A DNA stretch of 64,000 bases from Alphaproteobacteria bacterium (GTDB taxonomy: Bacteria > Pseudomonadota > Alphaproteobacteria > Micropepsales > Micropepsaceae): the NCBI GenBank assembly GCA_947473475.1, contig CANJBZ010000007.1, forward strand, positions 1-64,000, in the 5' to 3' direction. Shown here in pieces: positions 4,915 to 62,763 of the stretch (the stretch's first letter is position 1; each line of letters starts with the position of its first letter). Both the position numbers and the translations under genes were made by a program. Below the pieces are notes generated by a model that worked only from the letters and a program-made list of their open reading frames with translations, was not told the DNA's origin and ran no database searches.

Positions 4915-5039
4915 GAGAAGGCTCCGGCGCAGCGGGTTCACGCATAGAGCCGAAGCAACGCAACCGCAATATGTGTATAGTGCGGCTTGGCGCCATGGGG
5001 AAAACCCCGGGGCCTGGCGATCACGGGAGGGTATGCAAC

Positions 5040-6440
5040 ATGCTGCGCAAATCGGCACTTGGAACGGTTGGTCTTTCGCTCGTGGGGCTGTGCGCTCTGG
5101 CGACACCCGGCCAGGCCCAAATGGGCGGCCAGAACGGCGCCCCCTGGCGCGGAGCCGGGACGCAGCCCTGTTTCTCGCCCATCGACAATGCTGCCAACAA
5201 ATGCGGTCCAGCGGCGGAAACGGTGGCGGTGAAAGCGGGGCGGCTGTTCGACAGCAAGACCGCGCAAATGCTCACCAACCAAATCATCCTGCTGCAAGGC
5301 GAGCGCATCACCGAGGTCGGGCCCGTGGCGCAGGTCCGCATTCCGGCGGGCGCGCAAGTGATCGACCTGTCGAACCAAACGGTTCTGCCTGGATTGATCG
5401 ACCTGCATACGCATATGTTCAACACGCCTAAGCCCGGCATGTCGCGCGAGTTGTCCACGCTGGTGGCCATTCAGAACACGCAAGCTGACCTGCGGGCCGG
5501 CTTTACGGCCGTGCGCGATATGGGCACGCATGGCAACGGCTATGCCGACGTCGACATCAGGAATGCCATCAACAAGGGGCTGATCGATGGCCCGCGTGCG
5601 CAAGTTTCGACGCGCGGTATTGTCTGGAGCGGTGCTGCCAATGCAGAACCGGACAATGCCCTTGCCAGCACCGTTGTGCGCAATGCGGATGAAGCGCGTG
5701 CCGCGGTGCGCGATCAAATCCAGCACGGCGCCGATTGGATCAAAGTGTACCCGACGGGCGCCTATTCCTTCGCTCCGGACGGTCAGGCGCAATATGTGCT
5801 GACCTATCCGATGCCGGTGCTGCAGGCCCTGATCGATGAGACCCATCGTTTGGGCCACAAGACGGCCTGCCATGTTTACGGCGGCGATGGGCAGAAGAAC
5901 GCGATTGTTGCCGGTTGCGATTCCATCGAGCACGCCTTCGGCCTGGATCAGGAACAGGCGAACATGATGGTCGCCAAGAGGCTTACCTACGATCCGACGC
6001 TGCAGCGTTACACCGAGCCGTATATGGACGATAACGACCGCAAATCGACCGGCGGCAAATACCGGATGATCCCGATCTTCGAAAAAGCCGTCACCATGGC
6101 CTCCAACACGCGGGGGCTGAAAATCACGGTCGGCAGCGGTGTGGATGGCGCGACGTTCCCGCACGGCACGCAGGCGCTGGAATACATCGCGCTGGTGAAA
6201 CAGGCGCATCTGACGCCGGCGCGCGTTCTTCAGGCAGGCACCATGAACAATGCGGAAGTGCTGGGCTGGGATAAGGACATCGGCAGCATCGAAAAAGGCA
6301 AATACGCCGATCTCGTCGCCATGGCCGGCGATCCCCTGGCGGACATCACCGAGCTGCAGCGCGTCGCCTTTGTCATGAAGGGCGGCAAGATCATCCGTAA
6401 CGATCTGTTGCCGCGCGCGACCCAAACAGCGACGCGTTAA
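5040..6440 (+). CDS. Secreted amidohydrolase (prolidase-like subgroup)
   Basis: Metal-dependent amidohydrolase, 466 residues, with a Sec signal peptide ending near PGQAQ. Metal and catalytic residues are all visible: HTH in LPGLIDLHTHMF, Lys in DWIKVYPTGAY, His in ACHVYGG, His in CDSIEHAFG and Asp in GSGVDGATFPHG. The C-terminal GSIEKGKYADLVAM stretch is the composite sandwich domain typical of the family. ATG at 5040 sits behind GGGAGG. It is paralogous to the gene at 14436-15779, which lacks the Asp. Likely substrates are X-Pro dipeptides or N-acyl amino acids; not decidable here. Confidence 0.88.
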   Translation: MLRKSALGTVGLSLVGLCALATPGQAQMGGQNGAPWRGAGTQPCFSPIDNAANKCGPAAETVAVKAGRLFDSKTAQMLTNQIILLQGERITEVGPVAQVRIPAGAQVIDLSNQTVLPGLIDLHTHMFNTPKPGMSRELSTLVAIQNTQADLRAGFTAVRDMGTHGNGYADVDIRNAINKGLIDGPRAQVSTRGIVWSGAANAEPDNALASTVVRNADEARAAVRDQIQHGADWIKVYPTGAYSFAPDGQAQYVLTYPMPVLQALIDETHRLGHKTACHVYGGDGQKNAIVAGCDSIEHAFGLDQEQANMMVAKRLTYDPTLQRYTEPYMDDNDRKSTGGKYRMIPIFEKAVTMASNTRGLKITVGSGVDGATFPHGTQALEYIALVKQAHLTPARVLQAGTMNNAEVLGWDKDIGSIEKGKYADLVAMAGDPLADITELQRVAFVMKGGKIIRNDLLPRATQTATR

Positions 6441-10670: not shown

Positions 10671-11570
10671 TCAGAAGTCCCGGCTTTTTGCATGCGGTAT
10701 GTCGCGCGTCTTGCCCTCGATCGCGTCGTAATCGTCTTCGGCGCAGACTTGTTCCAGCCATGGGGTGGGCGTGCGGCGATAGGTGGATGTGGCCGACCAC
10801 GCCGTGGTGAACATTTTCGGGTCTTCGACAGATATCTGGACCTGAAGCCCTTTAACGCTCGTGTTTGGATCAAGCACCATCGCACCGGGCGCACCGCCGA
10901 CACGGCCCTCGCTCCGCTCAAATGCGTCCTGCGCCTGCTTGGCGGTGGTTCCATCGATCAAACGATAGCGTTCGACAACGTGCAGCGAGTCCGTCACCGG
11001 CACGCCATAGCGGTCCACCATCGAGAACGGGAAGGACTGCACACCGACGGTATCGACAATCAGCGTGTCGCCTTCCCAATGGCCGACCGAATCGCCCATC
11101 GGTGAGGGCTTCAGGTTGCGCGGATGCGCCGTATTCATCCGCACACGGCGTATCTGATCGTCCTGATTGTAGATCATGGTGAGGTGGTCTTTGCCCGGCA
11201 AAATTCTGATGCCCAGCTGCATGGCATAGGTGAACGGCGGCTGATATGGCCCGCAATGATTGGACGGATCGGGATAGGCGCGGCCGGTCTTTGAGATTTC
11301 GCCCTGTTTGCGAACGGTTTCCGCCGCCGCCGGCTTTAGGATGGGGTTGTTGTAATCGCCGACAAGCTGGCCCGCGTCGGCGGAGCCATCGGGCAGGCGA
11401 TTAAGGTTCGTCAGCGGCGCGGGCTGGCCTGGGATCGGCTCAAAATTAAAGGCGTTGCGTCCCCACGGCCCTAAAAACGCCTCGGCAGGATCGGCCGTTT
11501 CCGCGCCAAATGCGGGCAAACCGATGCACACAGCGCACAGCGCCGCCGCAGGGATATAACCTGCCCTCAT
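10671..11570 (-). CDS. DF-tail exported paralog, cluster A no. 4 (subfamily 1)
   Basis: Unrecognised exported protein, 299 residues, signal peptide ending near GLPAFGAETA. Subfamily 1 marks: GDYNNPILKP, PDPSNHCGPYQPP with the first Cys, RRVRMNTAHPRNLKPSPMGDS, HWEGDTLIVDTVG, DSLHVVERYRLID, second Cys in EQVCAEDD, and final residues RDF. ATG at 11570 follows GAGGTG; the frame continues open far upstream, but that part overlaps the next paralog and is antisense-like. Eleven bases behind its upstream neighbour, so probably the last gene of a five-gene operon headed by the amidohydrolase at 15779. Function unknown. Confidence 0.85.
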   Translation of the reverse strand: MRAGYIPAAALCAVCIGLPAFGAETADPAEAFLGPWGRNAFNFEPIPGQPAPLTNLNRLPDGSADAGQLVGDYNNPILKPAAAETVRKQGEISKTGRAYPDPSNHCGPYQPPFTYAMQLGIRILPGKDHLTMIYNQDDQIRRVRMNTAHPRNLKPSPMGDSVGHWEGDTLIVDTVGVQSFPFSMVDRYGVPVTDSLHVVERYRLIDGTTAKQAQDAFERSEGRVGGAPGAMVLDPNTSVKGLQVQISVEDPKMFTTAWSATSTYRRTPTPWLEQVCAEDDYDAIEGKTRDIPHAKSRDF

Positions 11571-11581
11571 GGAACACCTCT

Positions 11582-12463
11582 TCAAAAATCGGGTTTCGCG
11601 GCTTGTGGTATCGGCTCGACATCGCCATAGCCGAACCATTGGGAATTGTTCTCCGCGCAGGACGCTTCCACCATCGGGCCGCCAGTGTTGCGCTGATAAA
11701 CCTGCAGTGCGCTCCAAGCCGTCGTAAAAGCGCCTGGGTCTTCCACGCGGACAGAAACTTCTATCGTTTTTCCACCGGGGGGCAGCCGGTAACGCTCGAC
11801 GACATGCATTTGGGCCGTGTGCGGCGTGCGGTAGGAATCGACGAAGGTGCGGTCGTTCAGGCCAATTGTGTCGACAACCAGCGTGTCGCCATTTTCGTAA
11901 TGACCAATGGATTCGCCGAACCAGGACGGCTTCACATTCTGCGAATGTTTGTCCGTCAAATACACATGCCGGGCCATGTGGTCTTCCTCCCAGATCATCG
12001 TCACTTCCTTCGGCGTCTGAAGAAAGTAGACGGGCCGCACGGGATAAAGCAGCCATCCCGGCACGCCGATGGGCCAACAGCGTTCCTTGGGCGTGAAATA
12101 GGGTTTGCCGGAAAGCGCCTGTTCGTTGGCTTTGCGAAGCGCATCCTTAACCCACGGCATCAGCATGGGATTGTTCAGGTTGGCGACGCGATAGGTCGGC
12201 TGCTTGCCGTCGCGGCGCGCGGCGGCATCGTCGGTATGGGGATGGGCGGGATCGTTGGTGACGGGGCCGGGGCCGCTCACCGGCGGCAGATAATCCTGGC
12301 CGGTGGGGTTCTCTCCCCTAGGATCGCCCGCAATCCAGCCTGTTCCGCTGTCCGGCGAAAAGATGGGAATCGGACCATTGTTCTGGGCGGCGGCGGGCCA
12401 CGTGATGGCTCCCGCCAGCATCACCAGCGGCACGACATTCAAGAGGGTCCGCATGGCTGTCAT
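11582..12463 (-). CDS. DF-tail exported paralog, cluster A no. 3 (subfamily 2)
   Basis: 293 residues with signal peptide ending near WPAAAQ. Unlike its three cluster A neighbours it has the cluster B layout: GWIAGD...DYLPPVSGPGP near 35-65, RVANLNNPMLMPWVKDALRKANE, first Cys in ERCWPIGVP, FLQTPKEVTMIWEEDHMARHVYLTDKHS, SWFGESIGHYENGDTLVVDT, second Cys in ASCAENN and final residues PDF. Six bases separate it from the upstream copy. Its position suggests exchange between the two arrays or an ancestral mixture (inference). Confidence 0.85.
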   Translation of the reverse strand: MTAMRTLLNVVPLVMLAGAITWPAAAQNNGPIPIFSPDSGTGWIAGDPRGENPTGQDYLPPVSGPGPVTNDPAHPHTDDAAARRDGKQPTYRVANLNNPMLMPWVKDALRKANEQALSGKPYFTPKERCWPIGVPGWLLYPVRPVYFLQTPKEVTMIWEEDHMARHVYLTDKHSQNVKPSWFGESIGHYENGDTLVVDTIGLNDRTFVDSYRTPHTAQMHVVERYRLPPGGKTIEVSVRVEDPGAFTTAWSALQVYQRNTGGPMVEASCAENNSQWFGYGDVEPIPQAAKPDF

Positions 12464-12469
12464 GGCGCC

Positions 12470-13426
12470 TTAGAAGTCCGGTGTCTTTGCCGTCGGCTGG
12501 TGCTGAAGATCGCCCAGATGGAACATGTCGACATTGTTGTCGGCGCAGACACCTTCATTCCAGCCGCGAATGGCGCGCTGATAGGTGACGTTCGTGTACC
12601 ATGGAACGGTGTAGGTCTTGGGGTCGTCCACCATCAACTCGACCCGCAGCGCCTTGCCGGCTTTCGGATCGACGGCCATCGGCCCGGTTTCGCCGTGCAC
12701 GCTCTTATGCTTCTCCAGCGCCGCTTTGCCTTCCGTGGCGTCGATAAGCCTGTACCGTTCGACCACATGCATGGCATCGCTCTGGGGCGTGCCGAAGCGG
12801 TCAACCACCGTGTACGGAGCAACCCTGATGCCGACCGTATCGACGACCAGCGTGTCGCCCTCGTAATGGGCAACGGAATCCCCCATCGGCGTGGCCTTAA
12901 GATTACGCGGATGGCTGGAATTCAGCCGGATATGCCGCACCTGATTGTCCTGCGTGTACAGGATGACGATTTCGTCCCCATTGCGCACCATTTCGAAGCC
13001 AAGCTGGATCGAGAACAAATAAGGCGGAGAATAGGCGCCGCACTGGTTGGATGGATCGGGAACGTCGTGGCCGCTCTCGGAATATTCGCCGTTACGCTTC
13101 ACGGCCGCCGCGGTCTCTGGCCGCAGGATGGGATTGTTGTAGTCGCCGACCAGCGGGATGGGGTCGCCATCCACCAGCGTGTAGCCCGCGAGCTTACCAA
13201 CCCGGCGCAGGTTGCCGATTGGGCCGGGCGTTTTGTCTGGGGTCTCGGTGTTGAAGGTGTTGCGGCCCCAGGTGCCGGAAAAATCCGGCACGGAGCCGGT
13301 GTCCGCAGCGAGGCCCGGCACAGCGCAAGCGGCCGTACAGAGCAAACCGCATGCGATGCGAAAACGCACCGATACGCCGGGCAAAACCGTTGTGCGCGCA
13401 ATCGGCGCTGTTAGAAATCCTCTCAC
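12470..13426 (-). CDS. DF-tail exported paralog, cluster A no. 2 (subfamily 1)
   Basis: 318 residues from a GTG at 13426, seven bases behind GGGAGG; the long open frame upstream to 13579 overlaps the next gene and is not credible. An extended n-region precedes the hydrophobic segment RIACGLLCTAACAVPGLAA. Subfamily 1 features include PDFSGTWGRNTFN after the signal, GDYNNPILRP, PSNQCGAYSPPY, MGDSVAHYEGDTLVVDT and MHVVERYRLID. Ends TPDF. Compared with neighbours it has an insertion rich in Lys/Glu around the HVVERY region (EGKAALEKHKS). Function unknown. Confidence 0.83.
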   Translation of the reverse strand: MRGFLTAPIARTTVLPGVSVRFRIACGLLCTAACAVPGLAADTGSVPDFSGTWGRNTFNTETPDKTPGPIGNLRRVGKLAGYTLVDGDPIPLVGDYNNPILRPETAAAVKRNGEYSESGHDVPDPSNQCGAYSPPYLFSIQLGFEMVRNGDEIVILYTQDNQVRHIRLNSSHPRNLKATPMGDSVAHYEGDTLVVDTVGIRVAPYTVVDRFGTPQSDAMHVVERYRLIDATEGKAALEKHKSVHGETGPMAVDPKAGKALRVELMVDDPKTYTVPWYTNVTYQRAIRGWNEGVCADNNVDMFHLGDLQHQPTAKTPDF

Positions 13427-13449
13427 AATTCCCCTCCCAGAGAACTTGC

Positions 13450-14367
13450 TCAGAAATCGCGTCTCTCGGCCCGCGGTACGTTCGTAATTTTCTCCGCGTA
13501 ATACTCGGTCTGATTTTCGGCACAGATCTGCTCCTGCCATTCGCTGCCGGCCTTGCGGTAGGTCACGACCTGCGACCATGGCGCGGTGAAGACGCCGGGG
13601 TCTTCGACTGTATAGGCAAGCTGCAGCCCTGGGCCTTTGTAATCGGGATCGTAGAAGACGCCGTTGCCGTTCGGTCCATCGGTGCGGCCGAAATCCTTCT
13701 CGTTTTGAACGACGGCCTTTTGCATGGTCTCGTTATCGACCATGCGATAGCGCTCGGTGACATGCATGGCTTCGCTTTGCGGCGAACCATACTGATCCGC
13801 CATGCTCATCGGCCCCACCTTGATGCCGACCGTGTCCACAACAAGCGTGCCGCCCTCGTAATGTCCGATGGAATCGCCCATCCAGGAGGGCGTGACTTTC
13901 GCGGGATGCCGCGCGTTCAGGCGAACATGCCGGACGTGATGATCCAGCATGTAGAGGATGGTGACTTCATCCTTGCCTTGGACAAGCTGGATTTCCTGCT
14001 GGCGCAGGATATAGGGCGGCTGCTGCGGCGCGCACTGGTTCGACGGATCGGGAAAGGCATCTCCGGTCTTGGAGATATCGCCCAATCGTTTCACCTGGGC
14101 GGCTGCCACGGGCTTCAGCAGCGGATCGTTGTAGTCACCGGCCAGTTTTCCGCCGTCATAGGCGCCATCCGATGCCCGGTGCATCAGGTTCACAATTCCA
14201 GCGCGCCCGGATTCCGGCGGTTCGGCCCCGAAGGTCATCCGCGCCCATACGCCCGCGAAATCCGGTACGGCCGCGCTTTCAGCCGCCTGGCCTGGCCAAA
14301 CGGCAGCGGCAGCCAACAGCACCGCCCCGATACAGACACGAGGTCCGGCCGGTATCTTGCGCGCCAT
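13450..14367 (-). CDS. DF-tail exported paralog, cluster A no. 1 (subfamily 1)
   Basis: 305 residues; ATG at 14367 follows GGGAGGG. Signal peptide runs to about AAVWPGQAA. Carries PDFAGVWARMTFG, GDYNDPLLKP, PSNQCAPQQPPY, PSWMGDSIGHYEGGTLVVDTVG, MHVTERYRMVD and a second Cys in EQICAENQ; ends RRDF. It is 68 bases downstream of the amidohydrolase-like gene at 14436-15779, so the enzyme and four paralogs are likely one transcript. Function unknown. Confidence 0.85.
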   Translation of the reverse strand: MARKIPAGPRVCIGAVLLAAAAVWPGQAAESAAVPDFAGVWARMTFGAEPPESGRAGIVNLMHRASDGAYDGGKLAGDYNDPLLKPVAAAQVKRLGDISKTGDAFPDPSNQCAPQQPPYILRQQEIQLVQGKDEVTILYMLDHHVRHVRLNARHPAKVTPSWMGDSIGHYEGGTLVVDTVGIKVGPMSMADQYGSPQSEAMHVTERYRMVDNETMQKAVVQNEKDFGRTDGPNGNGVFYDPDYKGPGLQLAYTVEDPGVFTAPWSQVVTYRKAGSEWQEQICAENQTEYYAEKITNVPRAERRDF

Positions 14368-14435
14368 CGAAGCCCTCCCAGACATTCGCTGGAGTATAGC
14401 CCGCCAGATGCGGGAAATCAGGCGCTAAATGGGTG

Positions 14436-15779
14436 TCAACGCGCGGTGGCTGCGACGTCGGCCCCGCCAAGCGTATTCTTCACCACCATGCCGCCCTTCA
14501 TCACGAAGCGTACCCGCTCCATTTCCGCAATATCGTCCAGCGGATTGCCTCCGACCGCGATGATGTCGGCGAACTTGCCCTTCTCGATGCTGGCTATCTG
14601 GTTTTCCCAATTGTAGTTCAGCATCCGCGCCGCCGGCAGATAGGCCGTCTGGATCGCCTGAGCGGGCTTCATCCCCCATTTCACGAAGAAGCCGAACTGG
14701 TTCCCCTGCTTGCCGTGCGGTATCGCGGCGGACGTGGCGCCGCTGCCGAAGACGATCGTCACCCCTGCGGCGAGCGCGCGGCGGAAGGCCTGCTCGGCCA
14801 GCTTCATGCGGGAATTGCGCCCGCCCGTGGCTTCCATGTCCTCTTTTTCCAGCGCGATGAGATCATCGATGGTGCAGACGAACGGAAGCCGCTTTTGCAG
14901 CAAGGTACGTATCTGCGGCGTATCCATTTCCAGCAGATGATTATTCGCATCCACGCCCGCGTTGATGCAGGAATCCATGCCTTCGCCGCCATAGGTATGA
15001 CAGGCGACTTTCAGCCCGAGCCGGTGCGATTCATCCACAATGGCTTGCACTTCTTCGAAGGTCATCGACGGGCTGTTCACCAGCGTCGCGTCCGGCTTCC
15101 ACATATGCATCGTGCCGGAGAAATCCTGGGTCGTATAAATCTTGATGTAATCCACGCCGTGCAGCTTGGCTTCGCGCACGGCCGCGCGCGCCAGCCACGG
15201 CCCATTGATATTCTTGTTCTCGGTGTAGCTCGAATAGAAGCGGCCCTCGGCGGGGTCGGTATAGTAGTTCGTGGCGCGCGGATTGAGTGATTGTCCCACC
15301 ACCTGCATACGCGGGCCTTGCACGAGTCCTGAATTTATCTGATCGCGCAGATCGACCGTGTTCCAGCCGCCGCGCGAGTCCATGTCCAGAACGGTGGTGA
15401 AGCCCGCTTCCAGATCGACCTGAGCGTTGGCCAGCGCGATCAGCGCCCGCTGCGTCGGCGTATTGCCGCCTGTGTTCACATGCACGTGGGCATCGACCAT
15501 TCCCGGCATAACGGTGGCCGCGGAAAGATCGATGACCCGCGCGCCCGCCGGAATAGCGAGATTGGGTCCGGCATCGGTAATGCGGTCACCTTTCACCAGA
15601 ATTATTTGATTGTTGAGCATCGTGCCGGTGCGCGAATCGAACAGCCGTCCGGCGCGAATGGCGATGATCTGGTCCGCCGGCGCAAGATATTTGCCTGCTG
15701 CCTGCGCCCCGGCCGGCGTTGCGCCTAATGTTGGGCCGATTGCCGCGAATGCAAGAATGGCCATTGTTTTGGCGCGCAT
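14436..15779 (-). CDS. Exported amidohydrolase homolog lacking the final catalytic Asp
   Basis: 447 residues, signal peptide to about GATPAGAQA. Clear paralog of the enzyme at 5040-6440: AIRAGRLFDSRTG, metal-site HVH in VDAHVHVN, Lys in DYIKIYTT, His in ACHTYGG, and NNHL where the other has IEH. The segment aligned to GSGVDGATFPHG reads GSGATSAAIPHG, so the conserved Asp that activates water is Thr. It may therefore be inactive, use another base, or bind without hydrolysing. ATG at 15779 follows GGGAGGGG. It heads cluster A of the DF-tail family. Confidence 0.88.
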   Translation of the reverse strand: MRAKTMAILAFAAIGPTLGATPAGAQAAGKYLAPADQIIAIRAGRLFDSRTGTMLNNQIILVKGDRITDAGPNLAIPAGARVIDLSAATVMPGMVDAHVHVNTGGNTPTQRALIALANAQVDLEAGFTTVLDMDSRGGWNTVDLRDQINSGLVQGPRMQVVGQSLNPRATNYYTDPAEGRFYSSYTENKNINGPWLARAAVREAKLHGVDYIKIYTTQDFSGTMHMWKPDATLVNSPSMTFEEVQAIVDESHRLGLKVACHTYGGEGMDSCINAGVDANNHLLEMDTPQIRTLLQKRLPFVCTIDDLIALEKEDMEATGGRNSRMKLAEQAFRRALAAGVTIVFGSGATSAAIPHGKQGNQFGFFVKWGMKPAQAIQTAYLPAARMLNYNWENQIASIEKGKFADIIAVGGNPLDDIAEMERVRFVMKGGMVVKNTLGGADVAATAR

Positions 15780-49772: not shown

Positions 49773-50672
49773 TCAGAAATCCGCGGTCTTCGCTTCCGGA
49801 ATTGGGGCCACACCGAGACTGAAGAAGTTGGTGTGATTTTCGGCGCAGGGCGATTCATCGACTTCGCCTTGCAGTCTCAGGCGATAGGTTTGCCGGGCAG
49901 ACCATTTCGTCGTGAACGCGCCGGGGTCTTCGACATCCACTTTCACTTCCATCGTGCGGCCGTCGGGCACGAGCGTGTAACGCTCGACGACATGCAGCGC
50001 CTTGGTGTGCGGCGTCAGATAATTGTCGACAAAGGTCTTGTCCGAAATCGCGATGGTGTCCACCACCAGCGTGTCGTGGCCTTCGTAGTGGCCAACGGAT
50101 TCGCCATACCAGGACGGCTTCGGATTCATGGAATGCGGCACGTTCAGATAAACATGGCGGGTCTGTGCATCGCCCTCATTGATGAGCAGCACGTCCTTGG
50201 CGCCTTGGACAATATAAACGGGCCGCACGCGCGTGTAGACGGTGAACGCTGGCACGCCCGCCGGCCAGCAGCGCTCGCGCGGATTGTAGGGTATGCCGCC
50301 CGCAAGAACGCGCGCGTTTGCTTTTTCCAGCGATTGCCTGACCCAAGGCTGCAGAATGGGATTTGATGTATCGGCGACGCGATAGGTCGGATCGCCGCTT
50401 TGGTTGCTGCGATAGGGGTGTTTGGGATCGGCGAAGATCGGTCCTGGTCCAGAGTCGGGCGGCAGGAAATCATCGCCCACTTCGTACCAGCCATAATCGA
50501 CGGCGGCGAAATTCGGGATGCCGTCGGCGCGCGGCTTCAGCGTCCCTTCCGCGGCGAGCGGAAAACCCGCGCCCTGCGGAAGACCGGCGGCGCGCTGGTC
50601 CAACGTCGCCGCGGATGCCGCCGCCAGGGAAGCCGCAACCGCTGCCGCCGTATAGACCTTCAATCCGCGCAT
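49773..50672 (-). CDS. DF-tail exported paralog, cluster B no. 14
   Basis: 299 residues from ATG 50672 (weak ribosome site); the open extension upstream to 50882 lies in the next gene. Signal peptide to about ASAATL, then YGWYEVGDDFLPPDSGPGP, TYRVADTSNPILQPWVRQSLEKAN, first Cys in ERCWPAGVP near 135, TRHVYLNVPHSMNPKPSWY and GESVGHYEGHDTLVVDT. Second Cys in ESPCAENH; ends TADF. It has an extra HD pair before TLVVDT and a long insert after the signal (residues 28-58). Last gene of cluster B on the minus strand. Confidence 0.83.
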   Translation of the reverse strand: MRGLKVYTAAAVAASLAAASAATLDQRAAGLPQGAGFPLAAEGTLKPRADGIPNFAAVDYGWYEVGDDFLPPDSGPGPIFADPKHPYRSNQSGDPTYRVADTSNPILQPWVRQSLEKANARVLAGGIPYNPRERCWPAGVPAFTVYTRVRPVYIVQGAKDVLLINEGDAQTRHVYLNVPHSMNPKPSWYGESVGHYEGHDTLVVDTIAISDKTFVDNYLTPHTKALHVVERYTLVPDGRTMEVKVDVEDPGAFTTKWSARQTYRLRLQGEVDESPCAENHTNFFSLGVAPIPEAKTADF

Positions 50673-50706
50673 AAGACTGTGCCGTGATGCCTTCGCCACT
50701 CGGCTA

Positions 50707-51522
50707 TCAAAAATCGGGCCGGTTGGCGACAGGAACCGGCCAGTCGAACAGGCCGAAATTGTTCTCCGCGCAGACCACCTCGGTGAGCGGCCCTTCCTCA
50801 ACGCGACGATACCGCTGTAACGCCGACCAGGGCTTGTTGAACGTGTTCGGGTCATCCACCGTGATCTTCGTCTCCAGCACACGTCCGTTGTCCGTCAGGC
50901 GGTAGCGCTCCACGACGTGCAGCTTTTCAGTGTGGGGCGTGCGGTAATTGTCGACATAGGTCTTGGTGTTCATGCCGATGGTGTCGACCACAAGCGTGTC
51001 GCCTTCATAGCGGCCGACCGACTCGCCATACCAGGACGGCCTAGGATTTTTGGAATGCTCTACGTTCATCCGTACTCGGCGGACCTCCTGGTTGCCGGCG
51101 AAAATGAGCCGCACGTCCTTCGGCGTCTGGATGAAATAGATCGGCTCGACAATGTAGGACGAAAATCCGGGGACGCCCGCCGGTGTGCAGCTTGACCGCG
51201 CGGTGAATGCGTTCTTGCCGGCCAAGACCGCGTCATTGTCTTTCTTCATCTGCGCCGCCGCCCAGGGCTTCAGATTGGGATTGGCGGTGTCGGCAATGCG
51301 GAACGTCGCCTGCGCCGCCCGTCCATTCGGCACATAGGGATGCGCCGGATCGAACGTGCTGGGCGGCGTCTCACCCGGCACCGGCGCCAGATCGTTGTTC
51401 ATCGCGATCCACGCCGTACCGCCATTGGCTTGGAGATCGGGCGGGGAGGGCGCGTCGGCAGCGAATGCCGCGGATGAGAGCACAAGGCTCACGATCGACA
51501 ATAGCGTCCGTTTACGGAGCAT
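50707..51522 (-). CDS. DF-tail exported paralog, cluster B no. 13
   Basis: 271 residues, the shortest copy. Signal peptide to about SSAAFAAD; WIAMNNDLAPVPGE, TFRIADTANPNLKPWAAAQMKKDN, first Cys in SSCTPAGVP at 112, YFIQTPKDVRLIF, SWYGESVGRYEG, TPHTEKLHVVERY, second Cys near 251 and final residues RPDF. Arg replaces His in the usual SVGHYEG core. Follows the 121-bp repeat that separates it from the tannase-like gene. Confidence 0.83.
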   Translation of the reverse strand: MLRKRTLLSIVSLVLSSAAFAADAPSPPDLQANGGTAWIAMNNDLAPVPGETPPSTFDPAHPYVPNGRAAQATFRIADTANPNLKPWAAAQMKKDNDAVLAGKNAFTARSSCTPAGVPGFSSYIVEPIYFIQTPKDVRLIFAGNQEVRRVRMNVEHSKNPRPSWYGESVGRYEGDTLVVDTIGMNTKTYVDNYRTPHTEKLHVVERYRLTDNGRVLETKITVDDPNTFNKPWSALQRYRRVEEGPLTEVVCAENNFGLFDWPVPVANRPDF

Positions 51523-51564
51523 TATTTCTTCAACCTCTTTACCCCTCGTTCAAAAACCAACTTT

Positions 51565-51685
51565 ACCATGGCCGGGCTTGACCCGGCCACCTAGTGCGCA
51601 CGCGTCTGCGGGCGCAAAAGAATCATTGGCTCGCCGACGCTCGCCTGCTGGGTGGCCGGCTCGGAGGCCGGCCATGGTGAGAGAT
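51565..51685. repeat. 121-bp dispersed structured repeat, copy 2
   Basis: Aligns end to end with 33700-33820 at the same length. First stem GGCCGGG-CTTGA-CCCGGCC against GGCCGCC-CTTGA-GGCGGCC in copy 1: the two base pairs differ on both strands at once. Last stem GGCCGGC-TCGGAG-GCCGGCC and the tail GGTGAGAGAT are unchanged. Lies between a DF-tail gene and the tannase-family gene. Confidence 0.85.
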
Positions 51686-51697
51686 TTGGTTTCATGA

Positions 51698-53359
51698 TCA
51701 CGGTTTCGCACAACTGAAACTGGCAGCGTCCTTCACGTCGCCTTTGCCGTCGTAGCGCGGGTAGGCGGGATACAGGCACATCGGCCGCGCGGCGACCGTC
51801 GGGAACGGCGCCTTCTGTTCCTGCGACACCTGCATCAGCACTGCCGGTGCTTTGCCGCCATCGACCCATCCGTCGAGCGCACCCAGCATGTCCACTTTCG
51901 CCGGTACCGCTTCGCCGTTTGCCATCACGCCGTTACCCGGATGATTGACGCCGGGCGTCGTATAAAAACGCATAAACGAATCCACGCGCGCCGGGCCCAT
52001 CTTGGCGACGACGGATTTGTAATAGGTGGTCTCCTGCAGCACGCTGCGCTGATAGTCCGCGCCATTGCCTTTCAGGATCAGCTTGCCGCCACGCGCGAGG
52101 AACGCAGACAAGTCCGGATCGGTCGCGTCGAACATCTGCGAGATTTCGCGCAGGCGGGCGGTGCTTTCTTGAATCGAGAATTGGAACGGGTTGAACTTGG
52201 CGTCCTTCGCGACGTAGTAGCGGATAAAGCCGTTGGAGTTCGCCCAGGCGACCGATTGCACCTTTTCCGAGATAAGCGGGAAGCGCGGCGGCTCCAACCC
52301 GGTAATGGTATCAACCATGCCGCCGGGCTGAACCTCGCTGCCATAGGTCCAGCCGGGGAAACTTGTCGTCCCGTTCTTCATCGCGAACGGATACGGGAAC
52401 GGCCGGTGTATCAGGCGGTCGGCTTCGATCTGTGCATCCGATAAACAGGTATCGCCTTCATCCTTGCCGGACGCGCAGCGGATTACCTTCGGATCGAAAA
52501 CCGTCATGCATTGTTCGTAGGCGCCGATCACCCCGTCCGCCAAACCGTCGAGCTTGTCGCAAGCCGCATTGACGGCCGTCATCAGCGTTTTCACCTTGGC
52601 CGGGTTGAGCCAGCCGCCATCGTTTTGCAGTTGCGCCAGCTTATTCCGCACCAACTGACCGCCCGTGTAATTCGCCACTGGGACCACCGCGACGATGCCG
52701 TCGAAATCATTGGGGAAACGCTGCGCCATGGTCAGCGCCTCGCGTCCGCCTTCGGAGCCGCCATAGAAATACATCTTCGTCGGCGCGCGGTCGTAAAAGG
52801 CCGTCGCGATGCGCACGCCCGCATCGTGCGTCTTCTTGTAGGCGGCATAAGCCATGTTGGTCAGCGACTCGTCGTTCAGCGCGAACGCCATAGGCTCAGC
52901 CAGCTTCTTGTTGTCGTGGCCGGAATCCGTGCCCCATGTCGCAAAGCCACGCGCCACCGGAACGGGCGTATCGCGCCGCGCATCGCGCAATGGCGCAAGA
53001 CCGGTAATCAGAACGCCATTGCTGCCGCCGCCGCCATATTGCACCGCCTTGCCGTTCCACTGCATCGGCAGGTTCACTTCGAAATTCACCGGCGGCGCGT
53101 TGGGATCGAGCGGCTGCACCGCGCCGAGCACCTTGCAATATTCCTTCGTCGCGCCGGGGTTAGCGGGATCGGCAACCACCGTGGCGATTTGTGCAGACGA
53201 GATCGTTGCGCCGCCGTTCGGCAAGCCGATGTCTTTGGCAGCGATCTTCAGTTGAACCAGATCGGCGCACGCCGTGGCTGCGTTGGCGGGCGCAGCGGCC
53301 AATGCCAACGCCGCCGTGGCGCTCGTGGCAAGCAACAGGCGCAAAGAGGCGTGGGTCAT
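51698..53359 (-). CDS. Tannase/feruloyl esterase family hydrolase without the CS-D-HC cysteines
   Basis: 553 residues, signal peptide to about AAPANAATA. Family features: GGTISS-like N-terminal stretch, YGGGGSNGVLI, YFYGGSEGGREALTMAQRFP nucleophile loop, GGKLILKGNGADYQRS (likely catalytic Asp) and PGVNHPGNG (His). Canonical enzymes have Cys before the Ser and after the His, linked by a disulfide (CS-D-HC). Here both positions are changed, to Gly and Pro. Sits between two DF-tail copies on the same strand, so it may work with them. Substrate likely an aromatic ester. Confidence 0.85.
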   Translation of the reverse strand: MTHASLRLLLATSATAALALAAAPANAATACADLVQLKIAAKDIGLPNGGATISSAQIATVVADPANPGATKEYCKVLGAVQPLDPNAPPVNFEVNLPMQWNGKAVQYGGGGSNGVLITGLAPLRDARRDTPVPVARGFATWGTDSGHDNKKLAEPMAFALNDESLTNMAYAAYKKTHDAGVRIATAFYDRAPTKMYFYGGSEGGREALTMAQRFPNDFDGIVAVVPVANYTGGQLVRNKLAQLQNDGGWLNPAKVKTLMTAVNAACDKLDGLADGVIGAYEQCMTVFDPKVIRCASGKDEGDTCLSDAQIEADRLIHRPFPYPFAMKNGTTSFPGWTYGSEVQPGGMVDTITGLEPPRFPLISEKVQSVAWANSNGFIRYYVAKDAKFNPFQFSIQESTARLREISQMFDATDPDLSAFLARGGKLILKGNGADYQRSVLQETTYYKSVVAKMGPARVDSFMRFYTTPGVNHPGNGVMANGEAVPAKVDMLGALDGWVDGGKAPAVLMQVSQEQKAPFPTVAARPMCLYPAYPRYDGKGDVKDAASFSCAKP

Positions 53360-53376
53360 AGGGGCGTTCCTTTTTC

Positions 53377-54213
53377 TTAGAAGTCAGGGGTCTTGGCCTG
53401 CGGAATGGGGTCCATGTCATAGCCGAGGAAATTGTTCGGATTCTCGGCGCAGCTTTGCTCCGGCATCGGCCCGTTCTGCACGCGGCGATAACGCTGCATC
53501 GCATGCCAGGGCGTCGTGAAGGCGCCGGGGTCTTCCACCATCACGTCCACCGTCAGCCCCTTTTGATCGGGATTGATCTTGAAGCGCTCTACAACGTGCA
53601 GTTTGGTGGTGTGCGGCGTGCGGAAATTGTCGACGTAAGACTTGTCGTTCAGTCCGACGGTGTCGACCACCAGCGTATCGCCGTTTTCATAGTGGCCGAT
53701 GGATTCGCCGAACCAGGACGGCCCAGGATTGGCGCTGTGCTTATCCGTCAGATAGACCCGCCGCACCTCATGATTGGGCGGCCAGACCAGCACCACTTCC
53801 TTCGGCGTCTGGATGAAATAGACGGGCTGCGCGGGATGCAGCAGATAGGCGGGTACGCCCTGCGGAATGCAGCTCACCTGCGGCGTAAACCCGCCACGCC
53901 CGCCCGCCTTTACATTCTCATTCACCTTGGTGAGCGCCTCACGCACCCAGGGTTGCAGAATGGGATTGCTGACGTCCGCATCGCGAAAGGTAGGCTGCGC
54001 CCCCGTGTTGTTGCCACCATGCTCGTGACCTGGAACGTCGCGCACGGGACCCGGACCGCTTGGCGGCTGCAGGAAGTCCGCTCCCGCGGCCTGCCAGCCG
54101 CCGTCCATAAAGGCGAAGGGTGGAATCTGCGTGTTGTCGGCCGCCAGCGCCGTGCCCGCACATGCGAGCGTCGCGGCGCCCATGGCGGCCGCAAACATCC
54201 TCGAAGCAGTCAT
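53377..54213 (-). CDS. DF-tail exported paralog, cluster B no. 12
   Basis: 278 residues from ATG 54213 (an ATG at 54216 is adjacent to GGGAGGG). Signal peptide to about GTALAAD; GGWQAAGADFLQPPSGPGP, first Cys in QVSCIPQGVP, YLLHPAQPVYFIQTPKEVVLVW, YLTDKHSANPGPSWFGES, TPHTTKLHVVERF, second Cys in EQSCAEN and tail TPDF. 17 bases from the tannase-like gene downstream and 23 from the upstream copy. Function unknown. Confidence 0.85.
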   Translation of the reverse strand: MTASRMFAAAMGAATLACAGTALAADNTQIPPFAFMDGGWQAAGADFLQPPSGPGPVRDVPGHEHGGNNTGAQPTFRDADVSNPILQPWVREALTKVNENVKAGGRGGFTPQVSCIPQGVPAYLLHPAQPVYFIQTPKEVVLVWPPNHEVRRVYLTDKHSANPGPSWFGESIGHYENGDTLVVDTVGLNDKSYVDNFRTPHTTKLHVVERFKINPDQKGLTVDVMVEDPGAFTTPWHAMQRYRRVQNGPMPEQSCAENPNNFLGYDMDPIPQAKTPDF

Positions 54214-54236
54214 CATCCCTCCCTGAAAACGATACG

Positions 54237-55157
54237 TCAGAAGTCCGGTTTGGCCGCCTCTGGAGCGCCCACCCAGCCCGGTATATTGAAGATGTTGTCG
54301 TTGTTCTCGGAACAGTTCTGTTCGATCAACGGTCGGTTCGGCGTGCGGGTGTAGGTCTGCTTCGTCTGCCAAGGCTGATTGAAGGCTTCCGGATCGTCCA
54401 CGGTCAGATTGACCTCAAGGCGCTTGCCCTCTTCGATGAGATGATAGCGTTCCACGACGTGCAGCTTTTCGGTGTGCGGCGTGTGGTAATTATCCACGAC
54501 GGCCTTGGTCGACAGCCCGATGGTGTCCACCACCAGCGTATCGCCCTCGTAGTGGCCCACGGATTCTCCGTACCAGGATGGTTTGGGATTGTTGCTGTGC
54601 GGCACGTTCATATGAACATGCCGGACCTCGCGGTTGCCGGAATAGATCAGCAGCACTTCCTTGGGCGATTGAATGACGTAAACCGGCTCGACCACGAAGA
54701 TGGAGAATCCCGGCACGCCCCCCGGCAGGCAGCTCCAGCGTGGGGTGGTTCCAAGCTCGCCGCCGGCCAAAACTTTGTCGTTCCACTTCTTCAGCTCGGC
54801 GACGACCCAAGGCTTCAGATTGGGATTGCTGAGGTCCGCGATGCGATAGGTGGCTTGGCCGGGCTCGTCGTTACGGCGGAACGGATATTTCGGATCCCAG
54901 GTCACCGGGCTGGGGCTGCCTGGAACGGCCACGAAATCCGAGTTGATGGCGATCCATCCGTCCGTAGGCGCCCAAAAATTCGGGATGCTGGAATTCTCCG
55001 CCGCTGACGCGGCCGTCAGACAAAAGAGAGATGCCGCTACTGCTCCTACCCTCCCCTTGAGGGAGGGTCGAACGCGGCGTAGCCCAAAGGGCGAAGCCTC
55101 CCACCCTCCCTCAAGGGGAGGGTGGGAGGCTGTGACTCGCGACAAAAAACGAAACAT
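54237..55157 (-). CDS. DF-tail exported paralog, cluster B no. 11, with repeat inserted in signal peptide
   Basis: 306 residues from ATG 55157 (GAGGT upstream). Residues 1-9 (MFRFLSRVT) and about 39-52 (AVAASLFCLTAASA) would join to a perfect signal peptide. About 29-30 residues between them (starting ASHPPLEGGWEAS) are encoded by a palindromic repeat at 55044-55129, kept in frame. The rest is standard: DGWIAINSDFVAVPG, first Cys in RWSCLPGGVP, VYVIQSPKEVLLIY, SWYGESVGHYEG, TPHTEKLHVVERY, second Cys in EQNCSEN and tail KPDF. Export may be weakened by the insert. Confidence 0.83.
   Translation of the reverse strand: MFRFLSRVTASHPPLEGGWEASPFGLRRVRPSLKGRVGAVAASLFCLTAASAAENSSIPNFWAPTDGWIAINSDFVAVPGSPSPVTWDPKYPFRRNDEPGQATYRIADLSNPNLKPWVVAELKKWNDKVLAGGELGTTPRWSCLPGGVPGFSIFVVEPVYVIQSPKEVLLIYSGNREVRHVHMNVPHSNNPKPSWYGESVGHYEGDTLVVDTIGLSTKAVVDNYHTPHTEKLHVVERYHLIEEGKRLEVNLTVDDPEAFNQPWQTKQTYTRTPNRPLIEQNCSENNDNIFNIPGWVGAPEAAKPDF
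55044..55129. repeat. Palindromic element inside a coding sequence
   Basis: Left CCCTCCCCTTGAGGGAGGG (55049-55068) is repeated inverted as CCCTCCCTCAAGGGGAGGG (55103-55122), with CCTACC/GGTGGGAGG-type outer ends and a 30-base core. About 86 bases long, in frame inside the gene at 54237-55157. Such elements are otherwise intergenic. Confidence 0.8.
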
Positions 55158-55173
55158 CGGGACCTCACTCGTC

Positions 55174-56052
55174 TCAAAAATCCGGCCGTTTGGCTTCCGG
55201 CATCGGCTCGGTTTCATGGTTGAAATAGTTCGCGTTATTTTCCGCGCAGTTCATCTCAATGATAGGCCCTGGCTCGACCCGGCGGTAGCGCTGAATAGCG
55301 TTCCAGGGCTGGGTAAACGCGCCGGGGTCTTCCACGCGCAGGTCCACCTGCAGGACCTTGCCGCCCTCGATCATGTGGAAGCGTTCGACGATATGCAGTT
55401 TGTCCGTATGGGGCGTGCGGTAATTGTCGACGAAGACCTGATCGTTCAGTCCGACCGTATCGACCACCAGCGTATCGCCTTCGTAATGACCGACCGACTC
55501 GCCGTGCCAGGATGGGGCGGCCTTCGCCGAATGGGGCACGTTCAGATAGACGTGACGCACCATGTGATCGAACTGGGTCATCATCACGATCTCTTTGGCG
55601 GTCTGGACAAAGAACAGCGGCTGCACCGGGTAGAGCAGATAAACCGGCACGCCGTTGGGCCAGCACGCCGTCTGCCGCGTGTAGCCGGGCCTACCCGCCA
55701 GCACCGCCTCGTTGCGCTTACGCAGGGCTTCGCGCGTCCACGGCAACAGGATTGGGTTGGAGAGGTCCGCCACACGGAAGGTGGAGGCGCCCAGAAACTT
55801 CATGGACGGCTGTGCCGCGCGGTATTCCACTTCATCGGGAATGAAGGGGTGCTGAGGGTCGCTGAGGATCGGTCCAGCGCCGCTCGCGGGCGGCAGAAAA
55901 TCGGTGCCATAGGCGATCCAGCCCACATTGGGCGTGGGCGAAAGGCTCAGCGGCGGTGCGCTGTTCTGGGCGAAACTGGCGCCGCCGCAAAAGCCGCACG
56001 TGGCAGCTGCGGCAAAGACACCTGCGAAAACAAAATCTCTGAAACGAAGCAT
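55174..56052 (-). CDS. DF-tail exported paralog, cluster B no. 10
   Basis: 292 residues from ATG 56052, two bases after the preceding stop. Signal peptide to about GGASFAQN; has an insert of about 12 residues (EVEYRAAQPSMKFL) ahead of the RVADLSNPILLPW stretch, then first Cys in QTACWPNGVP, YLLYPVQPLFFVQT, APSWHGESVGHYEGDTLVVDT (His in place of Tyr/Phe), TPHTDKLHIVERF, second Cys in MNCAENN and tail RPDF. Function unknown. Confidence 0.84.
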   Translation of the reverse strand: MLRFRDFVFAGVFAAAATCGFCGGASFAQNSAPPLSLSPTPNVGWIAYGTDFLPPASGAGPILSDPQHPFIPDEVEYRAAQPSMKFLGASTFRVADLSNPILLPWTREALRKRNEAVLAGRPGYTRQTACWPNGVPVYLLYPVQPLFFVQTAKEIVMMTQFDHMVRHVYLNVPHSAKAAPSWHGESVGHYEGDTLVVDTVGLNDQVFVDNYRTPHTDKLHIVERFHMIEGGKVLQVDLRVEDPGAFTQPWNAIQRYRRVEPGPIIEMNCAENNANYFNHETEPMPEAKRPDF

Positions 56053-56054
56053 GG

Positions 56055-56921
56055 TCAAAAATCCGGATGATCTTGCTGCGGCAGCGGGTCGAAGTCGAAA
56101 TTGAAGTAATTGATGTTGCCTTCAGCACAGGTGGATTCCGCCATCGCGCCGACTTCCAGCCGCGCATAAAGCTGCTTGGCCTGCCAGGGCGTCGTGAACG
56201 CGCCGGGGTCTTCGACCGTCAGGCTCACTTCGATGCGGGTTTCCGCGTTCATCAGGCGGTAGCGTTCGACCACGTGCAGCTTGTCGGTGTGGGGCGTGCG
56301 GTAATTGTCGACGAAGGTCTTGGTGTTCAGCCCGATCGTATCCACCACCAGCGTGTCGCCATTTTCGTAGTGGCCGATGGATTCGCCAAACCATGACGGC
56401 TTGGGATTGGGCGTGTGCTTATCGGTCAGATAAATGTGCCGGACCATCATGTCCGACTGCCAGATCATCAGCACTTCCTTCGGCGTTTGGATGATGTAGG
56501 TCGGTTGCGCCGTGTACAGAACAAACGCCGGCACGCCCAGCGGCCAGCAGCGCACCTGAGGCGGGAAGGCCGGCTTGCCCGCCAGAACCTTGTCGTTGGT
56601 CTTTTTCAGCTCGTCTTTGACCCAGGGCTGAAGGATGGGATTGTTCAAATCGGCCACCCGCAACGTCGGCTGACGCCCGCCGCGTCCGCTTTGGATGTAG
56701 GGATGGGCTGGATCGGGCGTGACGGGATGCGGCCCGCTGTCCGGGGGCATGTATTCGTTGCCATAGGCCAGCCAGCTTACGGACTCGTCGCCGCCGAAAT
56801 TCGGAATCTTGCCAGGCGGCACCGGCAGGCTGGGAGCCTGCGCCAACGCCAGCCCTGCGCACAACGCCACGGAAGCGCCCGCAAGCAGCGACGTCGCGCA
56901 TGCAACTCGAAATTTCACCAT
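56055..56921 (-). CDS. DF-tail exported paralog, cluster B no. 9
   Basis: 288 residues from ATG 56921; the long frame back to 57431 is the antisense of the neighbour and is discarded. Signal peptide to about AGLALAQAP, WLAYGNEYMPPDSGPHP, RVADLNNPILQPWVKDELKKTND, first Cys in QVRCWPLGVP, YIIQTPKEVLMIWQSD, PSWFGESIGHYENGDT, TPHTDKLHVVERY, second Cys in ESTCAEGN and tail HPDF. Typical subfamily 2 member with an almost consensus sequence. Confidence 0.85.
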   Translation of the reverse strand: MVKFRVACATSLLAGASVALCAGLALAQAPSLPVPPGKIPNFGGDESVSWLAYGNEYMPPDSGPHPVTPDPAHPYIQSGRGGRQPTLRVADLNNPILQPWVKDELKKTNDKVLAGKPAFPPQVRCWPLGVPAFVLYTAQPTYIIQTPKEVLMIWQSDMMVRHIYLTDKHTPNPKPSWFGESIGHYENGDTLVVDTIGLNTKTFVDNYRTPHTDKLHVVERYRLMNAETRIEVSLTVEDPGAFTTPWQAKQLYARLEVGAMAESTCAEGNINYFNFDFDPLPQQDHPDF

Positions 56922-56938
56922 GCCGGTCCAATACCTGT

Positions 56939-57799
56939 TCAAAAATCCGCTTTCGCCGCGACCGGAAGCGGCTCGGTGCGCTGCTGGAACGGGTTGTTCA
57001 TTTCGCCATCCGCGCAGCGCGATTCGATCATCGGTCCGGGGGCTTTGCGCCAGCGATGGATGACGTGCAGCGGCTGCTTCAGCACCGCCGGGTCGTCCAT
57101 GGTGATGTCCGCTTCGAGCTTCTCGCCGCCTTCGATCAGGCGGATGCGCTCGACGACGTGCAGCTTCTCGGAATGCGGCGTGCGGTAATTGTCGATGAAG
57201 GTCTTGGTGTTTTGGCCAATGGTGTCCACGATCAGCGTATCGCCTTCCCAGTGACCGACAGATTCTCCGTACCAGGACGGTTTGGGATTGGCGGAGTGCG
57301 GGACGTCCATATAGATGTGGCGAATCTGCTGATCCATCTGCCACATCATGGTGATCTTCTTCGGCTCCTGCAGGATGAAGGTCGGCTGCGCCGGGTTCAG
57401 CAGATAGACCGGCGTGCCGGACATCCAGCAACGCGACTCGCGAGCGAACATCGCAAAGCCGGACAAAACCAGGTCGTTCGACTTCTTCAATTCCGCCTTC
57501 GCGAAATCGGTCAGATTGGGATTGCTGATGTCGGCGACGCGGAACGTCGATTGCTCACCCGAACCATTGGGCACGTAGCGGTGCGCCGGATCATAGGTAA
57601 CCGGCTGCGGACCGCCGGGCACCGGATCGTAGTCCGTGCCGATGGAAATCCAGCCGGTATTGTTGTCGGAGAAGACCGGCCGCGCACCATTGGCCGGCGC
57701 CGCCGCAAGACTTGGCGCCAAGCCAAGTCCCGCCAGCAACCCGATTGCAGCAGTTCCAGAAAACAAGCTCACGAAACGCTTCGACGCAAATTTGGACAT
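56939..57799 (-). CDS. DF-tail exported paralog, cluster B no. 8
   Basis: 286 residues from ATG 57799 behind GGGAGG. Signal peptide to about APSLAAAP; GWISIGTDYDPVPGGPQP, STFRVADISNPNLTDFAKAELKKSND, first Cys in ESRCWMSGTP (no Val after Gly), FILQEPKKITMMWQMD, SWYGESVGHWEGDTLIVDT, TPHSEKLHVVERI, second Cys in ESRCADGE and tail KADF. One of the more divergent copies around the CWP motif. Confidence 0.84.
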   Translation of the reverse strand: MSKFASKRFVSLFSGTAAIGLLAGLGLAPSLAAAPANGARPVFSDNNTGWISIGTDYDPVPGGPQPVTYDPAHRYVPNGSGEQSTFRVADISNPNLTDFAKAELKKSNDLVLSGFAMFARESRCWMSGTPVYLLNPAQPTFILQEPKKITMMWQMDQQIRHIYMDVPHSANPKPSWYGESVGHWEGDTLIVDTIGQNTKTFIDNYRTPHSEKLHVVERIRLIEGGEKLEADITMDDPAVLKQPLHVIHRWRKAPGPMIESRCADGEMNNPFQQRTEPLPVAAKADF

Positions 57800-57837
57800 C
57801 GGTACCTCCCAATCCCAATGCCCCATCCCGTCAGCGA

Positions 57838-58797
57838 TCAGAAATCCGCTCTATTGGCCTCCGGGATCGGGGGCAGTTTCTGCTTGAAGAAGATGGCGTC
57901 ATTGTTGTTTTCGGCGCAAACCGTCTCAAGAAGCGGGTTCACCACTTTGCGCCATTTCTGCATCATGTGCAGCGGTTCGTTGAACGTATCGGAGTCTTCC
58001 ACCATCACCACCGCCGTCAACTCTTTGCCGTCCGGCGAGATCGTGAAGCGCTCGACAACATGCTCCTTCTCGGTGTGCGGGGTGCGGAAATTGTCGATGA
58101 AGTTGTTCTTCGTGGCCAAACCGATGGTGTCGACCACCAGCGTATTGCCGTTTTCATAATGGCCGATGGAGTGGCCGAAGGACTCGGTCTTCACATTGGC
58201 CGGGTGCTTATCGGTCAGGAAGATACGGCGGACCATATGGTCGCGCTGCCAGATCATCCAAACTTCCTTGGGGGTCTGAATGAAATAGAACGGCTCCGCC
58301 GGATACAGCAATTGCCCCGGAACCCCGCCCGGCCAGCAGCGCGCTTGCGCCGCAAACGGCACGTCGAGCTTGCCGGAGAGCACCTCGTCATTGCTCGCCT
58401 TCATGGCGTCCGACGCCCATTTCTTGATCCGGGGGTCGCGGTAATCGCCGATACGCAGTGTCGGCTGCACGCCCAGACGTATCGCCTCGACATTGCTGAT
58501 CTGCGGATGCTCGGGATCGTTCTTGATGCGCCCATGCCCCGGCGTACCGGCGGGAGGGTCCATCCAATCGGCGCCGACAGACAGCCAAGCGAACTGCGTC
58601 GAGGCAAGGTTCGGAATGCCGTCCTTCGTCACCGTGAAGTCCAGGAAGTTCGGCGTGGAGGTATCGACAAGAGACGGTTCACTCTGCCGTTGCGCCGATG
58701 AAGCGGGCGATAGCGCCGCAACCACGAGAGAAGCCACGGCGCAAAAGGCGAGAGCGCCTTTGCGTGCGGTAGAGGAGAGCAGGGCAGTCTTTAACAT
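57838..58797 (-). CDS. DF-tail exported paralog, cluster B no. 7 (tandem twin)
   Basis: 319 residues from ATG 58797 (GGAG upstream; ATG at 58800 is alternative). Signal peptide to about ALSPASSAQ. Long N-terminal spacer with FTVTKDGIPNLASTQFAWLSVGADW, then DYRDPRIKKWASDAM, first Cys in QARCWPGGVP, YFIQTPKEVWMIWQRDHMV, SFGHSIGHYENGNTLVVDT, LATKNNFIDNFRTPHTEKE, second Cys in ETVCAENN and tail RADF. Very like the next copy, with which it forms a recent duplicate pair. Confidence 0.86.
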   Translation of the reverse strand: MLKTALLSSTARKGALAFCAVASLVVAALSPASSAQRQSEPSLVDTSTPNFLDFTVTKDGIPNLASTQFAWLSVGADWMDPPAGTPGHGRIKNDPEHPQISNVEAIRLGVQPTLRIGDYRDPRIKKWASDAMKASNDEVLSGKLDVPFAAQARCWPGGVPGQLLYPAEPFYFIQTPKEVWMIWQRDHMVRRIFLTDKHPANVKTESFGHSIGHYENGNTLVVDTIGLATKNNFIDNFRTPHTEKEHVVERFTISPDGKELTAVVMVEDSDTFNEPLHMMQKWRKVVNPLLETVCAENNNDAIFFKQKLPPIPEANRADF

Positions 58798-58859
58798 CAT
58801 CAACTCCGTACGTGTGTTCATGCTCCAATCAAAACCGGCCCTGCATTCTCAGCCGGGCG

Positions 58860-59810: not shown

Positions 59811-59844
59811 TACTCAACTCCGTAGTGTGTGTGCGTACTTCCGA

Positions 59845-61894: not shown

Positions 61895-61919
61895 ATCGTC
61901 CTCCCAAGCAGCCGGTTGT

Positions 61920-62762: not shown

Positions 62763-62763
62763 G

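Follow-up and report, generated by a model that had tools for sequence, protein, structure and literature searches.

A glycine at the beta-8 aspartate position in a conserved clade of amidohydrolase-superfamily proteins

Gene A, an amidohydrolase-superfamily gene located in the 64,000-nucleotide stretch of DNA analysed in this study (the window), has a glycine, Gly347, at the canonical position of the aspartate at the end of strand beta-8. In binuclear amidohydrolases, this aspartate is regarded as a defining ligand and as the general acid/base. The absence of the aspartate from gene A goes beyond a chance observation, as Gly347 was found in 99 of the 148 aligned proteins and these 99 occupy one side of a single branch. 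The reading favoured here, at a probability of roughly 0.58, is that gene A encodes a maintained metal enzyme of a monophyletic, exported clade, akin to Cc2672 and the X-Pro dipeptidases, in which the acid/base function would have been rebuilt at position 306. Annotation models put the proteins of this clade nearest to Xaa-Pro dipeptidase. A large and conserved clade lacking the aspartate means either that the chemistry has another route, or that many annotated hydrolases do something else. If a broader and more tentative proposal, that of an undescribed catalytic subtype, is true, the clade would represent a natural, clade-wide relocation of a catalytic residue that has long been treated as indispensable. 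Its A, B and C branches, with the nearest Asp-bearing groups, are natural partners for residue swaps.

Gene A and the residue lost from strand beta-8

The features of gene A and of paralog B in the window are as follows.

14436..15779, minus strand: gene A, amidohydrolase superfamily, 447 aa, Gly347 type, A branch (open reading frame, PF01979 and structural model)
15480..15488, minus strand: HxH metal motif, His98 and His100, invariant in 99/99 Gly rows
15141..15143, minus strand: Lys213, position of the carboxylated bridging lysine (alignment)
14997..14999, minus strand: His261, metal ligand (alignment)
14937..14939, minus strand: His281, metal ligand (alignment)
14862..14864, minus strand: Asp306, beta-7 end, candidate replacement acid, Asp in 20/20 A-branch rows as delimited on the first tree
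14739..14741, minus strand: Gly347, codon GGC, canonical beta-8 Asp position (alignment)
14733..14735, minus strand: Thr349, codon ACG, taken for the lost Asp in the first-pass annotation, two residues past the canonical position (alignment)
4971..6440, plus strand: paralog B (GSGVDG), Gly codon at 6138 (canonical position), Asp codon at 6144 (+2) and Arg codon at 6006 (306 position)

Gene A is an intact open reading frame on the minus strand, and the plus-strand reading contains stops. The protein matched PF01979 (Amidohydro_1) above the cut-off, with an E value of 2.8e-20. The best NCBIfam model was NF051886, Xaa-Pro dipeptidase, with 282.6 bits, the cut-off of 500 not being reached. The nearest solved relative was Cc2672 (3mtw), an L-Lys/L-Arg carboxypeptidase of Caulobacter, with 205 bits over residues 37-434. 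The AlphaFold model of gene A (pLDDT 85.4, pTM 0.87) superposed on 3mtw over its full length, with a Z score of 45.8 and an rmsd of 2.3 for 378 aligned residues. With the TIM-barrel fold and the PF01979 match, gene A belongs to the amidohydrolase superfamily. The N-terminus carries a Sec-type leader, as judged by eye, and the protein looks exported.

In the first-pass annotation, the loop of gene A (FGSGATSAAIPHG) had been compared with that of paralog B (VGSGVDGATFPHG), and the catalytic Asp was said to be replaced by threonine. The absence of the Asp was upheld, and Thr349 does occupy the column of the paralog B Asp, but the residue named was the wrong one, as the Asp of paralog B is not the catalytic Asp of the superfamily. 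On strand 8, the Asp-bearing relatives have the motif G-(T/S)-D, and both window paralogs have G-S-G. In relatives that can be aligned free of gaps (VGSDVGPFPHGTQ in L139 versus FGSGVGPFPHGTQ in L200), the canonical G-(T/S)-D aligns with the G-S-G of the two paralogs. In these rows it is the Asp itself that has changed, and the lost Asp is therefore Gly347. The Asp of paralog B lies at +2, within a two-residue insertion, and Thr349 of gene A corresponds to this extra Asp, which is particular to the B branch. Pairwise alignments are ambiguous because of the two-residue insertion that follows GSG in both A and B: with phmmer, the Asp of Cc2672 aligned with Gly347 in gene A, but with paralog B's own Asp in paralog B. 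The gap-free rows resolve this ambiguity, loop length being equal to that of 13/14 nearest Asp rows in 8/41 A-type and 9/10 C-type rows.

Paralog B was rejected as the intact, canonical control that it had been taken for, as it also has Gly at the canonical Asp position. An assay against this enzyme (the paralog at 5040 in the first-pass annotation) is thus not a comparison with a canonical enzyme.

Origin and spread of the Gly347 clade

Profile A1 was searched against 96 genomes of the order to which the window belongs, 398 genomes of its phylum and 5 genomes reached via acidobacterial loci; further searches around those covered 396, 299, 11 and 193 genomes, with some overlap between the sets. 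A match at E <= 1e-80 was obtained in 21/96 genomes of the order. A-type genes were present in 3/96, all within the window's own genus (7 genomes), and the window's own genome was the only one of the 398 phylum genomes to pass E <= 1e-110. The final alignment contained 148 proteins, of which 99 have Gly347, 46 have Asp and 3 have Asn at the beta-8 position. A truncated sequence (L137) and an off-family sequence (L053b) were dropped before tree construction, and the duplicate L333 (the same gene as L164) was removed. Columns 303-309 and 343-357 were excluded from both the 148-row and the 65-row trees.

The branch separating the 99 Gly347 rows had an SH-aLRT support of 98 in the 148-row tree. 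In the 65-row subset the same branch had bootstrap and SH-aLRT values of 98/96 and was present in 97% of 200 bootstrap trees, and its support in an earlier 85-row tree was 99. Twenty-three A-type rows added with profile A1 all had Gly347, the ligand set HHKHH and D314 (23/23), which is not a fully independent test, as the members of profile A1 all have GSG. C260 and Y263 of the Gly clade also occur in the nearest Asp-bearing group ('PTLYVYEFEPEED ... FGTDVGPFPHGTQ'), most members of which have an acid at 314 as well. These shared residues indicate that the Gly clade arose inside the same subfamily. On the sampled tree, the change from the beta-8 Asp to Gly has a single origin, which precedes the divergence of branches A, B and C. 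The clade is large and mostly from soil bacteria, and the loss of the Asp is old.

On the tree, gene A is nearer to the acidobacterial sequences L045, L180, L184 and L185 than to L125 (G002) of its own genus. This suggests inter-phylum transfer of gene A, or it may reflect contamination of metagenome-assembled genomes.

Genomic neighbourhood of A-type genes

The window contains 17 DF-tail proteins, in groups of 4 (10671-14385) and 13 (49776-63621). The first group is adjacent to gene A.

10671..14385, minus strand: the four DF-tail genes that lie downstream, an adjacency to gene A shared only within the genus

The four genes are on the same strand as gene A. The gap of 68 bases given in the first-pass annotation applies if the seventh-codon Met (14367) of the first DF-tail gene is the start, but there are only 50 bases to its first ATG (14385). 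The survey of homologs did not bear out a general pairing: an adjacent DF-tail gene was found at 1/25 other A-type loci, namely L206, which is from the same genus and lies at a contig end. L206 was in the first set of 17 A-type loci with flanks, in which L213 had DF-like matches more than 5 kb away; among 8 further loci none was adjacent, and L289 had a DF-like match about 5 kb away. Several contigs end near the gene, which limits these counts of neighbours. Among the controls, DF-like matches within the fetched stretch were found for 1/14 B-type, 0/6 C-type and 2/20 Asp-type or other loci. In the window's genome (3.87 Mb), DF-tail genes number about 89 and form about 57 clusters, and about 3% of genes would flank one by chance. 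DF-tail pairing as a general feature of A-type genes is not supported. Neither Pfam nor NCBIfam gave a match for the four DF-tail proteins tested. A structural model of the first one weakly resembles a fatty-acid-binding-protein barrel (best Foldseek E value 7.9e-3; Z score 9.0), a likeness too weak for a DF-tail function to be drawn from it.

An open reading frame of the MmgE/PrpD family overlaps the end of the amidohydrolase reading frame on the same strand at 4/25 A-type loci (L210, L212, L213 and L221, the last a member of a deep A lineage), Pfam matches being shown for L212 and L221. No such overlapping frame was present in the second set of 8 A-type loci. Weaker MmgE/PrpD matches were found 2.2-2.5 kb away at 3/6 C-type loci. 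By eye, the MmgE/PrpD reading frames of L212 and L213 have a twin-arginine-like leader; an exported setting is unusual for this family. A molybdenum hydroxylase is encoded near two A-type loci (L207 and L208) and one B-type locus (L228). The neighbours of L207, which is from the same genus (G001), comprise a molybdenum hydroxylase, an amidase, an Amidohydro_2 protein, an MFS transporter and an isopropylmalate-dehydrogenase-like gene, possibly an N-heterocycle catabolic cluster. The settings of the A-type genes look like small-molecule catabolism outside the cytoplasm.

Metal site, position 306 and possible functions

As the first-pass annotation had stated, the metal-binding His and Lys residues of gene A are kept. 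The HxH motif, the carboxylatable Lys and the two further His of binuclear subtype I are all present, with Gly347 in place of the Asp at the beta-8 end. The five residues His98, His100, Lys213, His261 and His281 are conserved in all 99 Gly347 rows (HHKHH), and the loss of several metal ligands that marks CRMP-like proteins was not seen in gene A. For A-type pairs, dN/dS was 0.04-0.29 (Nei-Gojobori; 9 pairs with dS < 1 among the pairs listed, pN < 0.2). Purifying selection acts on the A-type genes, which are not decaying. The five remaining ligands are under strict selection, and the protein is therefore most likely metal-binding and an enzyme; the earlier suggestion of a non-canonical enzyme fits these results. 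In contrast, the 3 Asn347 rows (L168, L315 and L332) have lost His281 (F or L) and have the look of a failing site. His281 is also lost in one Asp row, L302, and all four are probably decayed amidohydrolases.

Gene A shares the fold, the HxH motif, the Lys and the two His with Cc2672. It differs from Cc2672 and NF051886 in having Gly where these have Asp (GTD), and Tyr263 in place of their second beta-5 His (HAH), a residue expected for Xaa-Pro or Arg carboxypeptidase-like activity. In the 99 Gly rows this position is Y in 73, F in 20 and L in 6; it is Y in 14/14 nearest Asp rows. By sequence and fold, gene A is of the same family as the ochratoxin A amidohydrolases ADH3 and the A. niger ochratoxinase (AnOTA). 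According to the report on these enzymes, both need both metals, Asp378 of AnOTA is on the alpha metal, metal-ligand mutants of ADH3 are dead, and His289 of AnOTA, the second beta-5 His, binds the substrate carboxylate in docking (PMC11342369). The metallo bile salt hydrolase BwBSH, of the same superfamily, has a six-ligand binuclear site, and its description states that D583A abolished activity, as did mutation of each of the other five ligands (PMC13081902). The equivalent of BwBSH Asp583 is naturally Gly in the gene A clade, and the effect of D583A makes the loss of the Asp functionally weighty. Since removal of the Asp kills activity in related enzymes, a natural clade lacking it must either fulfil the same role by other means or serve a different one. 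No description of an Asp-less amidohydrolase clade was found in the titles and abstract openings of the open-licence literature searched, which is no proof of novelty.

Residue 306, at the beta-7 end, is ionizable in all 99 Gly rows (R in 46, D in 41, H in 10 and E in 2), whereas each of the 14 nearest Asp rows has a nonpolar residue there (V in 8, A in 3 and I, F and P in one each). Asp349 occurs in exactly the 46 rows with R306, which are 46/48 of the B-branch rows, and the two B-branch rows without Asp349 (L163 and L309) have Glu306 with Gln349. These patterns indicate that positions 306 and 349 change together. The coupling is suggestive of compensation for the lost Asp but is not proof of it, as the sequences are related and few independent changes lie behind the pattern. 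The counts are confined to rows in which T303-x-x-306 aligns without gaps, namely those with Gly and the 14 nearest with Asp; the more distant, Cc2672-like Asp rows were left uncounted because the register of the beta-7 loop differs between two alignments, the second of which has D or E in the 306 column in 16/46 Asp rows.

In the favoured explanation, the beta-8 Asp, both alpha-metal ligand and general acid/base, would have been replaced by Gly ancestrally, and one or two divalent metals would still be held by the HxH motif, the carboxylated Lys and the two His. The acid/base role would probably have shifted to position 306, with Asp306 in the A branch and His306 in the C branch, and in the B branch to an Arg306-Asp349 pair, or to Glu306/Gln349 in one B sub-lineage. 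In gene A, water may be activated by Asp306, provided that this residue comes within reach of the metal or of the water itself. A dipeptide with a free carboxylate is probably not the substrate, since the carboxylate-binding beta-5 His is replaced by Tyr, Phe or Leu, although the nearest Asp relatives share the Tyr. Further points weigh against this explanation: Gly347 could be a sign of inactivity, as metal-ligand mutants of the ochratoxinase relatives are reported to be dead (PMC11342369), and Asp349 of the B branch may simply be salt-bridged to Arg306 and not catalytic. A broader proposal, put forward tentatively, is that the clade may constitute an undescribed catalytic subtype, in which the Asp was lost once, the acid/base was rebuilt at the beta-7 end (Asp306, His306, Glu306 or Arg306-Asp349), and the genes spread in acidobacterial genomes and were exchanged with the window's genus.

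The alternative that catalysis disappeared with the Asp, leaving a metal-dependent binding or scaffold protein whose metal site is kept for ligand binding, is rather unlikely but has a precedent. The residue lost is one whose mutation is reported to kill relatives (PMC13081902, PMC11342369), and CRMP1, a pseudoenzyme of the superfamily and the closest published parallel to the Gly347 clade, also has Gly (Gly332) for the beta-8 Asp. In CRMP1, however, the majority of the other listed ligands are absent as well (PMC2999344), whereas the Gly347 clade keeps all five. The ionizable residue 306 in every Gly row and the overlap of some A-type genes with an enzyme gene (MmgE/PrpD) also argue against a purely binding function.

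An improbable reading, and the closest to the first-pass annotation, is that Asp349 of paralog B substitutes for the canonical Asp, in which case B would be near-canonical and only A would truly have lost its Asp. A two-residue step along a strand leaves the side-chain direction unchanged, and Asp349 is nearly universal in the B branch. However, Asp349 never occurs without Arg306, as would fit a salt bridge, Glu306 is present in the two B rows without Asp349, and Gly347 is ancestral and common to A and B. The original form of that annotation, in which gene A has undergone one Asp-to-Thr replacement and is functionally paired with the DF-tail genes, drew on a real residue difference to paralog B and on an adjacency seen in the window and in L206, but it has been largely refuted by Gly at the canonical position in both paralogs and by the 24/25 other A-type loci without an adjacent DF-tail gene, although several contigs are short. 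An alignment or assembly artefact, for which the variable-length insertions in the A and B loops might be invoked, is just as remote, since rows of equal loop length require no gap for D-to-G and the GSG motif recurs across many separate assemblies.

The spacing from His281 to residue 306 in gene A is 25, the same as that from His307 to the substrate-pocket Val332 in ochratoxinase (PMC11342369), an arithmetic hint only, as loop lengths differ. Asp/Glu314 was considered as a replacement acid, being present at first in 55/55 Gly versus 4/29 Asp rows, and was rejected when 13/14 nearest Asp rows were found to have an acid there. Cys260 was set aside as a catalytic residue: it directly precedes the ligand His261, a strand position expected to point away from the metal, and is also present in 14/14 nearest Asp rows.
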